Source: Tetradesmus obliquus
Taxonomy: Eukaryota; Chlorophyta; Chlorophyceae; Sphaeropleales; Scenedesmaceae
Assembly (NCBI GenBank): GCA_030272155.1
Contig: CP126205.1
Span: forward strand, 4,328,501 to 4,392,500
DNA: 64,000 nt
Direction of reading: 5' to 3'
Below are positions 433-58,683 of the stretch, piece by piece. Each line of letters begins with the position of its first letter. The stretch's first letter is position 1. The position numbers and the translations under genes are program-made. A model generated the notes under the pieces. The model saw only the letters and a program-made list of their open reading frames with translations, was not told the origin of the DNA and made no database searches.

Positions 433-3400
433 TCACGCTTGCTCATTCCTTGTGGCGTCATCATCCCCTGGCCCTGCCTGCAGCTCATCTCTGCTGTCGT
501 GCTGCTGCCCATTCGCGCCTTGCGCTGGCTCAGCAGCATCAGCAGCAGCTGCTGCTTCAACTGCTGCAGCTGTTACTTCGGCTACTTGCAAGGTAGCAGG
601 TGATACATCGTCTGCTGCTGCTGCGTCTGCTGCTGCACCGTCTGCTGCATCATCTGCTGCAGCCGTTTCAGGTGCTTCTGTATCTGCTGCAGCAGCTGTG
701 TCCAGTGCTGCTGCAGCAGCTGTAACAGATGCTGCATTTGCATAAGTTGCTGCAGGTGCGTCAGGTGCTGCATCTGCTGCTGCAGCTGCGTCAGATGCCG
801 CTTCTACTGCTGCAGCTGCGTCAGAAGCCGCTTCTGCTGCTGCAGCCGCTACGTCTGTCGCTTGGGTGGAAGGCGCCTCTACATCTGCTCCCGCTGCTGC
901 TGCAGGCACCTGCTGCGCAGCCTCACCTATGCCTTGCTGCTGCTGCTGCTGCTGTTGCTGCTGCTGCTGTTCTTGCAAAGGTAGCAGCGCTTCTGGTGCA
1001 GCCTTATCAGGCGCCGGCGACTGCTGCTGCTGCTGTGGTTCATGCTGGTCTGGTTCCTGCTGTTGTGATTCATGCATTTGCGTATCCTGCTGCGCCACCT
1101 CTGGCTGCCGCTGCTCTTGCTGCGGCTGCTCCACTTGCTGCGGCTGCTCCACTTGCTGTGGTGGCTCCTCTTGCTGCTGCTGCTGTTTCACTTGCTGCTG
1201 CTCCTGCTGCAGCTGTGGGATGGCTGCAGCGCCAGCAGCGCCTGCTGCAGCAGCAGCCACTGCTGCGGGTGGCGTCTTGCTGCGGATCTTGATGGTGCGG
1301 CCAGGCGCCCGGCCAGTCCCAGCAGCAGCAGCAGCAGCACCACCACCAGTAGCACCTGCCAGCAGCGCCCTGGCAAGGCTGGTTGCAGCCAGCGGCTTGC
1401 TCACAAACCGTTGGTGCTGCTGCTGCTGCTCTAGGCCAGCGCTGCTGCTGCGGTCTGCGTCCTCTCGCTGCTGCTGCTGCTGCTGCCGCTCTGCTGCTGC
1501 CATGGCCCCAGCCAGACCTGCCTCCACCAGCATCGCCTTCAGCGCCTCCATCCACTGCAGGAGAAAGCAATAGCAGCAGGAGCGGCAGCAGCAGCAGCAG
1601 ATTGACGCCTTTATGAAGGCATAGAGGGCAGCTGCGTTCATGCATCATGATGCCACAGACAGAGCAGCACGGGAGCAGGTTGCAGCGGCACATGCCTGTT
1701 GCCACAGCTCGATAGCTTGAGGGATCTCCAATGCCACAGCTGCAGCACTCACCCGCGTGCAGCTGTCCGCGCCCTAGCTGTGTAGCCACCAAGCGTGCAT
1801 GCTGCCCAGCAGCTTGCCCAGCCAGCTGCCAAATACACTTGCCCATCCTCCAGACCATACCACAGCTATGCTGCTTATGCAACCGCCTGCACCCCATCAC
1901 CGGCTGCACCCCTCACCGGGCCCAAGCACCTCGCATGCACCCATTTTTTAACAGGCCTCGGCATGCCGACAGAACAGCCCAGCAGCCACACTCACCCGAC
2001 GGCAGCTGTCAGCGCCGCAGCTGTGTGGCCACCACGCCCGCATGCTGCCCAGCAGCTTGCCCAGCCACATCCACTGCCAACCCCCCTGGCCTTGCTCACT
2101 GTTCAAAACAGCTGCAGCCCTCGCCAGGCTCCTGTGCCGACACTCCCTTATGACCCACATGCCCTGTGCATCCACAAACAGGCCTAAACCGAGCTATATT
2201 ATCAGCCACCCCAGAGCTGTGTGCACTCACCCGCCTGCAGCTGTCAGCGCCGCAGCTGTGCGGCCACCAGGCGCGCATGCTGCCCAGCAGCTTGCCCAGC
2301 CGCGTGCCCAGCACAGCAGCCTCGCCCCCACTGCCCCCAACACTCGCATCTGCTGCTGCTGCTGCCGCTGCGCCAGCCACAGCCGCCGGCGGCAGCCACT
2401 GCCCGGCCAGGTTTGCTGCGCTGCGCTTGTTGGCGTAGCGCAGCGCTGTGGTGCGCAGTGCGGGGATGGTTGCCATGAGGGCTGCCGGGGTGGCGGGCCG
2501 CAGCAGCCGCTCGATCGCCAGCTCCACCGGCACGTAGCCCTGCGGGTGGGAAGTGGGTTCAGTGGTAGGTTTTAGTGATGATTCAGCAGGTATAGGGGTC
2601 CCCAAACCAGCCGGCGCAACAGCAAGGGCAGTAGGTGCTCGATGGCCAGCTCCACCGGCACGTAGCCCTGCACGTGCAGCGACAGCGCATGAAGCCGTGT
2701 CTTGATGGAGGTTAAGGAGAGGGCAGCAGGCAAGGGTGGAAGGTTGTTCGGATCCAGTGCAGCAGGCGCTGTGTTGCCAGCTCCAGCAGCGCTACCGCTC
2801 ATGCGGGAGAATAGATGGTGTCTCAGCAGGTGAGGACTTGGGTTTCAGCACTGGCCGGTGCAACAAAGGCAGTGTGCACAGCAGCTTGCGCAGTATCCAA
2901 AGCACAGTACAGTAGTGCTTGCTGCGTGGACTCTGTGAACAAGCACACCTGCTCCAGCACATTGGAGCCCGCCTTGCCGCCGCCGCCCTCCACCCTGAAC
3001 CACGCGATACAACGTTCACTCTACACGCATGCGCCACACATGCTGCAAACCTTCCCAAAGCAGTCACCTGCTCCAGCACGGTTGCACCCGCCTTGCCGCC
3101 GCCACCCTCCACCCTGAACCACGCGGTACAATGTTCCACTGCCCAACACATGCGCCACACATGCTGCAAACCTTCGCAAAGCAGTCACCTGCTCCAGCAC
3201 GTTTGCGCCCGCCTTGCCGCCGCCGCCCTCCACCCTGAACCACGTCACGCTGCTCTGCAGCCCAGGCAGCCGCCTGTTGTAGGGCGACACGATGGCAGCA
3301 ATGTACGGCTCGTCGCTGCTGCCCTCAGACCGCACCTGGCAGCAGCAGCAGCAGCAGCTGTGACAGTGTAAGAGGTGGCCGAATATGAAACTTGAAGCTA

Positions 3401-58100: not shown

Positions 58101-58683
58101 CGTAGTGGATGCGCAGGGGAAGTTGTGGGGGTGGGAGAGTGGCCGCAGCTGCGCGCACCGCAGCGCAGCGGCTGCTGCGTTTGCTGCCAAGTCCGGTGCC
58201 ACAGCAAGGGGCAGTGACAGAATGACGGTGGTGTGGGAGGCGGCGCCGGGCTGCCGTGCAGTGCCGACTGCTGCCAACACGATTGCTGACAAGTTTGGAC
58301 GGCTGTGGAGCTGGGAGGATGGCACCACCTGCGCCTTCAAGGTGGGTGATGGATGGTAAATCATTGTTCAAAGGCACCTTAGAGCATTGCATATCCTGTT
58401 ATGTCATTTGCAAGTGGTGGGAGGACGGCACCACCTGCGCCTTCAAGGTGGGTGATTGAGCGGCACAATTTAGGATCCAACCCTGTCAGAGCCATGACAG
58501 CGCGACACCATTGCTTGTAATGAGTTTGCTATGCTGTCATCGTTCGCAATGGTACTGGACCGTCAGGGGCTGCCATTGTCCTGGGCATGCGTTGCTGAAG
58601 ATGTGGTAAGCTGCAAAGGTTGAGTGCTGCGCAGGGTGCTGACACTGTTTCATTATTCCTTGTGCTTCCGCTTGCAGGCCTGA
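52185..58683 (+). CDS. large low-complexity single-pass membrane protein with Cys-bracketed repeats
   Basis: Five exons, 52185-54017, 54465-55383, 56051-56682, 57016-58341 and 58678-58683, give 1,571 aa in phase; the last exon is only GCC plus TGA. The N-terminal 900 or so residues are Ser/Ala/Gln/Pro-rich, with PSRSPT-like basic-proline motifs and a poly-Gln tract of about 22. Exon 3 has one membrane segment (LLLILLMVLTTVGVGVGVWA) after basic residues, so the N-terminus is probably cytosolic. After it come NAS and NAT glycosylation-like sites and a conserved stretch (AILAGPLAKFFGFPVYTV). The end has three related units of about 30 residues: CPFAPTADGSIADAQGRLWG, CKAAATNANSVVDAQGKLWG, CRAVPTAANTIADKFGRLWS, each closing with a C(V/A)(F/H) motif. 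The units look like extracellular repeats of green algae; the function is unknown. Echoes occur in introns 1, 2 and 4. Confidence 0.75.
53638..53708 (+). repeat. (CAG)n poly-Gln tract
   Basis: About 23 near-pure CAG triplets in frame as Gln within exon 1 of the membrane protein gene. It is the longest pure coding CAG run in the window. Similar runs at 55080-55112 and 55204-55230 encode Gln in exon 2. Confidence 0.95.
54260..54376 (+). repeat. echo of exon 2 start, membrane protein gene
   Basis: About 54300-54376 copies the pre-acceptor sequence (CTGTCTCTGCTGGCCCCCTGCTGACT) and MKAEMARASP of exon 2 (54465), offset about 125 bp, ending at an A run. A fragment of the same upstream part begins near 54290. 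Confidence 0.85.
55480..55640 (+). repeat. two echoes of exon 2 3' edge, membrane protein gene
   Basis: Copies of the segment NSVEGCMRS plus donor (true edge 55383) end at about 55513 and 55634. They also share flanking intron sequence (AGTGGGAG...GCCTGCTTGGTG), so the unit is about 120 bp. Confidence 0.88.
55652..55706 (+). repeat. (AATGC)11 microsatellite
   Basis: Eleven perfect pentamers inside intron 2 of the membrane protein gene, directly after an exon echo. All frames stay open through it by chance. Confidence 0.95.
58405..58460 (+). repeat. echo of exon 4 3' edge, membrane protein gene
   Basis: Copies WWEDGTTCAFK plus GTGGGTGAT donor about 110 bp after the true exon end at 58341. 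Either donor can be joined to the GCC-TGA terminal exon at 58678 without changing the ending. Confidence 0.88.

Follow-up and report, generated by a model that had tools for sequence, protein, structure and literature searches.

How do the introns of a green alga come to hold partial copies of the ends of their own neighbouring exons? The question is raised by a 64,000-nucleotide stretch of Tetradesmus obliquus (C15:4328501-4392500, here called the window), taken from an assembly of 104.66 Mb in 17 contigs, in which a first-pass annotation had noticed introns packed with copies of the adjoining exon edge. These copies are confirmed and are also found beyond the window: about one in five T. obliquus exon ends has one or more faded copies, splice signal included, in the adjacent intron. 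With a probability of roughly 0.5, we regard them as the remains of repeated small tandem duplications straddling the border of a coding exon, with the exon held and the copy decaying.

The main survey comprised the window and five 40-kb blocks (A to E) with 489 exon edges, and a later sample of 60 kb from three further contigs (F, G and H), searched with unchanged settings, comprised 105. Exons were supplied by a small gene finder trained on the window and the five blocks; the edges are mostly ab initio predictions, and models based on outside proteins were used only for a pantothenate kinase fusion gene, a PP2C gene, ClpR and, in part, an MPND-like gene. Each probe consisted of 60 exon and 6 intron bases, and copies were sought on the intron side at a Smith-Waterman score of at least 46. 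Low-complexity repeats were masked, and exons shorter than 60 bp and probes with more than 30 masked bases were left out. BLAST self-search is unreliable below about 50 bp owing to its separation setting, and hence only Smith-Waterman spacings are counted.

An intron-side copy was identified at 102 of the 489 edges (donors 52/240, acceptors 50/249), namely at 32/117 in the window, 13/57 in block A, 4/51 in B, 4/127 in C, 23/70 in D and 26/67 in E, and the later sample yielded 22/105 (0/36, 6/26 and 16/43 in F, G and H, respectively). Probes in reverse complement gave 0/489 in the main survey and 0/105 in the later sample, or 0/594 in all, and the far side of the exon matched at only 24/489 edges. 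The window alone holds 51 copies at the survey score, in agreement with the first estimate of more than 50. The preference for direct orientation is also seen among repeat pairs in general: at a score of at least 44 and less than 2 kb apart, the window and the five blocks together contain 279 direct pairs and 15 inverted ones, the later sample has 79 against 2 within 1.5 kb, and a self-BLAST of the window returned 85 non-simple pairs, of which 72 are direct and less than 500 bp apart, 7 direct and less than 2 kb apart, 5 direct and more than 5 kb apart and 1 inverted. The copies are spread over the genome, but their density is patchy. The stretches C6:3000001-3040000 (4/127 edges) and C2:1000001-1020000 (0/36) are nearly free of copies, compared with 23/70 and 26/67 elsewhere, and eight short PP2C loci have copies at 1/54 edges. 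At the other extreme, a predicted kinase gene in C17:1200001-1240000 (a Pkinase match in a stitched piece) has 25 echoed edges and 40 predicted exons, although some of its copies may be true in-frame repeats.

It could be argued that the pattern arises from errors of assembly or of ab initio exon calling, given that outside proteins back only the kinase fusion, PP2C, ClpR and partly the MPND models. This explanation is very improbable. The kinase fusion, which was modelled from the protein of the species itself, gives a strong signal, the later sample reproduces the pattern, and exon and copy usually diverge by about 10% (mean identity 0.89), unlike assembly repeats; in particular, they differ at about 20% of fourfold sites, which makes an assembly artefact unlikely.

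The distribution of local repeats also bears on the question of whether duplicates are equally dense away from exon edges, an outcome that the first-pass annotation had named as fatal to its reading. Local direct repeats form 121 families, 89 of which contain a splice edge, the rest being noncoding (16), mixed (9) or exonic (7); in the later sample a splice edge lies inside 17 of 22. Random placement of the aligned part alone predicts 26/121 and 5/22, respectively; however, such a null sets the bar too low, as the unit originally duplicated is longer than the part that still aligns. When full units were simulated, the edge-containing fraction rose to 0.41-0.60, or about 50-73 of 121, and on this modelling the excess at edges remains, though smaller.

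The main test gene encodes a fusion of pantothenate kinase (Fumble, PF03630) with an ARMT1-like domain (PF01937), identified by Pfam and the species' own protein, and spans 36367-51297 on the plus strand with 18 exons in the model. Its spliced translation corresponds to T. obliquus protein OEZ86_010083 (P0001), being identical over the first 825 of 1114 residues, and exons 16-18 were placed by hand from tblastn matches and splice signals. With probes of 60 exon and 10 intron bases and a score of at least 40, a copy was identified within 1.5 kb, both sides being searched, at 18 of the 34 splice edges (9/17 donors and 9/17 acceptors), as opposed to 1 of 27 exon-middle probes. None of 314 probes matched in reverse complement, including 253 from intron interiors. 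At a score of 44 the gene has 16 repeat families, 14 of which extend over a splice edge; the remaining two, 39151-39439 (which stops about 10 bp before a donor) and 48809-48988, look by eye like worn copies of exon ends. Approximately 43% of its intron sequence (11.2 kb) lies within arrays, one of which was added by hand, and each copied edge is present once in the protein.

The copies of this gene, all on the plus strand, range from singletons to a long array. For 5' edges, the intron before exon 39074-39226 (37898-39073) carries 15 degenerate copies at 37898-38976, mostly about 70-80 bp apart. They were found at a laxer score, at which the same probe gave none in 50 shuffles and none in two intron control sets, and they bear out the earlier range of one to fifteen copies per edge. 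Two copies (39942 and 40056) of the start of exon 40186-40332, within 39931-40234, each follow their own unrelated CAG acceptor. Single copies precede exon 42697-42900 (42537-42767), where by eye the differences in the first 70 bp are mostly synonymous, exon 43351-43539 (43151-43411), where the first 44 bp are identical and the upstream intron is unrelated, and exons 46545-46613 and 46978-47067 (copies at 46450 and 46889, within 46448-47010). The start of exon 49138-49783 has copies within 48809-49189, the pair at 48809-48988 being assigned by eye, and that of exon 51049-51297 has three (50551-51091). For 3' edges, one copy with the donor GTGAG retained follows exon 40808-41019 (40994-41108), one follows exon 41358-41490 (41443-41901) and one follows exon 45899-46027 (45983-46221). 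Five copies with the donor follow exon 44020-44282 (44214-44873) at a period of about 107, with related spacers in four, and three copies, all with GTGAG, follow exon 49138-49783 (49727-50279). Of the four copies following exon 47414-47982 (47870-48741), the first matches the exon edge at 99% over 116 bp and by eye has the recent synonymous states of the exon, whereas the other three keep older states. Two long microsatellites, (TG)n at 39578-39741 and (GCTT)n at 41495-41691, also lie in these introns, the latter between the end of exon 41358-41490 and its copy. In addition, the deposited protein P0001 is without the CAG-rich parts of exons 16 and 17, which are open in the genome (47414-49783); coding repeats may thus have been treated as intron in the deposited model.

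Over the whole survey, the copies are direct and mostly 85-290 bp apart. Identities were counted for 171 anchored copies at the 102 edges (some edges contributing none, as copies with an alignment short of the splice site were omitted), and flank comparisons omit pairs less than 80-95 bp apart. The spacing of the nearest copy has its mode at 110-120 bp; none of the 171 is closer than 80 bp, the smallest spacing being 84 bp and, in the later sample, 85 bp (n=32). A strict minimum spacing as a mutational signature was rejected, since one old array in the kinase fusion is spaced at about 70-80 bp. The spacings are not in frame, with remainders of 0, 1 and 2 modulo three in 45, 60 and 60 of 165 cases. 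Exon and copy are 0.89 identical over 40 exon bases, and individual copies range from 98% identical to barely recognisable. This range and the presence of copies on several contigs fit the proposal of a continuing process in unrelated genes. The nearest copy is not clearly the best preserved, as had been claimed: it is so at 20.5 of 42 multi-copy edges, with 16.7 expected by chance, and a plot of identity against distance gives a Spearman rho of +0.16 (n=169).

Concerning the origin of the copies, the youngest arrays are simple tandem duplications across the border. An array over a ClpR donor in block A, whose exons are backed by an ungapped match to PDB 7eko_L, consists of 118 bp repeated 4.6 times at 98% identity, and a tandem unit of 123 bp at 95% covers a predicted edge in block G. 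Of 314 copy pairs, 161 still have spacers with significant similarity (p<0.05). As young arrays are complete tandem units that cover the border and about half of the spacers are still related, the data support tandem duplication at the coding-exon border as the source of the copies, as the annotation had suggested. One further array, 122 bp repeated 3.7 times at 97% (L021-L024 joined, 13232-13687), lies off any predicted exon edge and is either a young noncoding duplication or an exon missed by the gene finder.

The annotation further inferred a mechanism biased to segments containing splice sites, and this is not supported, as the ends of reading frames show. Predicted stop-codon ends have downstream copies in 7 of 39 cases, about the rate of splice edges. 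In the PP2C gene, whose stop is known from its own protein, the last 93 coding bp and the TGA are repeated 239 bp downstream (24364-24742, plus strand), with no splice site involved. Likewise, a predicted terminal exon with its stop at 58359 has a copy of its end 106 bp downstream (58312-58459, plus strand, ab initio), the similarity stopping before the stop codon; no copy was found downstream of the kinase-fusion stop. With copies about as frequent at predicted stop-codon ends, copying does not require a splice site, and these copies are therefore evidence against a splice-site-specific machine. The alternative raised by the annotation, weak selection against tolerated duplicates, fits better than a splice-site bias, but random duplication plus tolerance does not fully match the data, and some bias at coding borders may thus be involved.

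The fate of the copies can be judged from the 320 synonymous, 194 nonsynonymous and 7 stop differences between exon and copy, for which 156, 346 and 18.5, respectively, would be expected without constraint on either side. If the exon is held and the copy is free, the synonymous share should be 0.46-0.48. The pooled share is 0.52 (571/1097), with 0.51 for donors, 0.53 for acceptors, 0.45 (46/103) after stops and 0.41 to 0.55 in other groups. These shares lie near the expected value, and the copies are therefore mostly free, with constraint at most weak. A coding function of most copies was rejected in view of their frameshifts (34/169), in-frame stops (10/169) and out-of-frame spacing.

It is plausible from these observations that small tandem duplications, mostly of about 100-150 bp (range about 75-290), arise repeatedly across the borders of coding exons. 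They would be tolerated if the exon is still read from the original, nearest pair of splice sites (shortest-exon definition), and the extra copy would thus remain in the intron or beyond the stop codon. Selection would hold the real exon, and the copy and its surroundings would decay, leaving exon fragments with a splice signal in lengthened introns. Duplications within exons would be purged by selection, and those within introns would fade sooner because neither copy is held. An additional factor must be assumed that makes similarity break off sharply at the coding border.

Several observations weigh against simple duplication and decay. Of 88 pairs of at least 85% identity, 54 lose their similarity no more than 10 bp from the border on the intron side, and 3 lose it that close to the border on the exon side; pairs of 70-85% identity end this close on the intron side in only 11 of 59 and run deep into the intron, to a median of 99 bp (n=59). 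Identity is 0.88 in the first 5 intron bases and 0.67 in the next 5, and between exon and copy it is 0.59 over intron bases 8-48. Two copies of the same edge are 0.86 identical in the exon part and 0.58 in the intron part, compared with 0.50 for unrelated introns, a drop that neutral decay of two unheld copies should not produce, although detection via the exon part favours it. In the kinase fusion, 84 of the 253 intron-interior probes score at least 40 on the same strand, those listed lying largely inside copies, and the synonymous share of 0.58 (99/170) exceeds the free-copy expectation of 0.477 (p 0.004), as the pooled share exceeds 0.46. The absence of echoed edges from block F also sits poorly with the reading given here.

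Simulations added to these difficulties. The models covered neutral decay after random placement, a version of it with intron turnover, and gene conversion with and without unrepairable breaks. Exon identities from the neutral-decay, turnover and break models, at 0.83-0.93, bracket the 0.89 observed, but no setting of the turnover and break models places more than 26% of the ends of high-identity pairs within 10 bp on the intron side, and the edge fractions of the three, 0.41-0.60, compare with 98 splice to 25 noncoding loci observed. Neutral decay with small or large indels was accordingly rejected, as its exon identity of 0.83-0.91 fits and its border sharpness and edge share do not. Gene conversion from exon to copy was attractive at first since synonymous sites are fairly well kept (fourfold identity 0.79); as a cause of the sharp border it was also rejected, because simulated conversion evens both sides. 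At lower rates it has little effect, unrepairable breaks do not rescue it, and its addition to the model does not help. Turnover of the noncoding flanks in a form that was not modelled is the most likely cause of the sharp border, at about even odds, and ranks above border-bounded copying and selected copies.

Border-bounded copying would account directly for this sharpness. T. obliquus would actively copy exon ends, with the copying halted at the splice junction or coding border or slightly beyond it, and would insert them nearby with unrelated filler rather than duplicate a random stretch, its introns steadily filling with decoys; repair templated from the spliceosome-protected end of a pre-mRNA would be one way. 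The intron-side ends and the steep fall in identity described above are in its favour, as is the pair 43155/43350, which has 40/40 exon bases identical and no spacer similarity. About half of the pairs, however, have related spacers, young arrays include the intron part, and predicted stop-codon ends are copied about as often, and we consider such a process unlikely. If true, introns would be growing by a route bound to the exon-intron border, one for which random duplication does not account.

The retention of splice signals invites another explanation, in which selection keeps the copies because they serve as splice sites (decoy, recursive or redundant) or provide alternative exon ends. Of 90 donor copies, 79 retain GT, and of 81 acceptor copies, 62 retain AG; third codon positions hold 435 of 796 differences (55%), the kinase fusion shows its raised synonymous share, and the lack of spacings below 80 bp looks as if near decoys had been removed or a minimum intron were required. 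Nevertheless, the frameshifts and stops, the out-of-frame spacing, the old array at about 70-80 bp, the absence of the copies from the species' own proteins and their occurrence after stop codons make a general function doubtful, somewhat more so than border-bounded copying. Recursive splicing in particular was rejected, as the kinase fusion has several copied edges that differ from AG|GT.

The coding bias could also lie in where duplication begins. If starts favour coding DNA and only events reaching noncoding DNA survive, splice and stop edges would be what remains. Splice edges and predicted stop ends do have similar rates of copies, and of the seven contiguous arrays of at least 90% identity, six lie at predicted splice edges (one of them a 34-bp minisatellite), the seventh lies in an exon and none is noncoding, a distribution that also speaks against unbiased duplication with decay. 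On the other hand, predicted starts have copies in only 1 of 26 cases, and noncoding-only families exist (16/121, and 25/144 loci), although some of these are copy-copy pairs. Initiation within exons therefore seems improbable, and duplication across the border with a held exon and a decaying copy remains the reading that we prefer.

Other genes of the window show comparable features. The PP2C gene has six exons (21420-24456, plus strand), modelled from the species' own P0121 and the relative P0122, and a protein search returned T. obliquus OEZ86_010079 at 99% over the whole query. Copies of 3' edges follow exon 22198-22350 (22305-22467) and exon 22745-22916 (22875-23185; 51 bp, 98%), and contiguous tandem copies with a period of 103 cover the 5' edge of exon 23727-23859 (23516-23776), all on the plus strand. 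The MPND-like gene (RAMA and JAB domains; 1930-8154, minus strand) was traced by tblastn with the Scenedesmus sp. NREL 46B-D3 protein P0241, which also gave ten minus-strand hits off the main exon chain, at 7569-7525, 7280-7242, 7157-7122, 5107-5057, 4917-4867, 4071-4015, 3648-3598, 3139-3083, 3017-2949 and 2115-1930. Six of the ten are weak (E 0.015 to 0.51), and matching DNA repeats are present in the self-BLAST. By homology, PP2C and MPND copies lie on the same sides of exons, with several of the MPND hits being weak. A contiguous tandem pair with a period of 150-151 lies over a predicted donor at 33819 (33592-33898, minus strand, ab initio exon). Two perfect or nearly perfect minisatellites, 12880-13191 (34 bp, 9.2 units, 100%) and 17803-18425 (39 bp, 16 units, 97%), fall within a large gene on the minus strand, in stretches predicted to be mainly noncoding. 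Among the gene names first proposed, PP2C, MPND-like, pantothenate kinase and a methylguanine-DNA methyltransferase piece were upheld, and MED18 was not, its 189-aa piece having no Pfam match at 1e-3.

The copies resemble the tandem genomic duplication known from intron gain, but add to existing introns. The potato RdRp gene is reportedly a case of such a gain. In the account given in part of PMC3443670, tandem genomic duplication of an AGGT-bearing exon segment creates a new intron. As in that account (PMC3443670, in part), a segment with a splice motif is duplicated, and splicing removes the additional copy without altering the protein; tandem segment duplication with a splice-type motif in both copies is found in T. 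obliquus. In contrast to the new intron inside an exon, which uses the AGGT of both copies in the part of PMC3443670 concerned, T. obliquus copies enlarge an existing intron. Copies of donors are distinct from copies of acceptors, and the edge that was copied often differs from AGGT (CTG|GTGAG, CAA|GTGAG). Introns of the kinase fusion run from real donor to real acceptor, and no listed anchored copy site is the other end of an intron. The copy-to-copy intron that defines duplication-based gain is thus absent from this gene.

Other systems share some features. In polyubiquitin UBC, dual-specific splice sites lie in in-frame coding tandem repeats, and splice sites within repeat units make expansions nearly harmless, as in T. 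obliquus; unlike the in-frame coding units of UBC, T. obliquus spacings are a multiple of three in only 45/165 (for UBC, part of PMC10809524). Moreover, the copies are absent from the checked proteins P0001 and P0121. Introners, which insert copies into many genes and have been described chiefly from fast-evolving lineages, green algae among them, likewise reshape introns on a large scale (PMC9860276, in part). As far as the window shows, however, the T. obliquus copies are local, direct and different for each exon: at a score of 44 the window has 89 direct pairs less than 1 kb apart, compared with 6 direct and 1 inverted more than 5 kb apart. Tandem exon duplication, by which whole exons are duplicated and used as alternative exons, is also local and includes splice sites; here usually one exon end is duplicated and the second splice site is left behind. 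Arrays of exon-edge copies were undescribed in the titles and abstract openings among the literature matches listed, a set that mostly excludes subscription papers and does not show absence in print, and the main text of the Sphaeropleales genome papers searched contained neither 'intron' nor 'tandem'.

For genome annotation, gene predictors are liable to call such copies as extra exons, as the gene finder in this analysis did. For T. obliquus itself, intron growth has apparently been caught in progress. The genome also appears to hold natural decoy splice sites on a genome scale, in a near-identical exon context, often with the same GT or AG and at known distances, and the choice of the spliceosome among near-identical sites is therefore testable by RNA sequencing.

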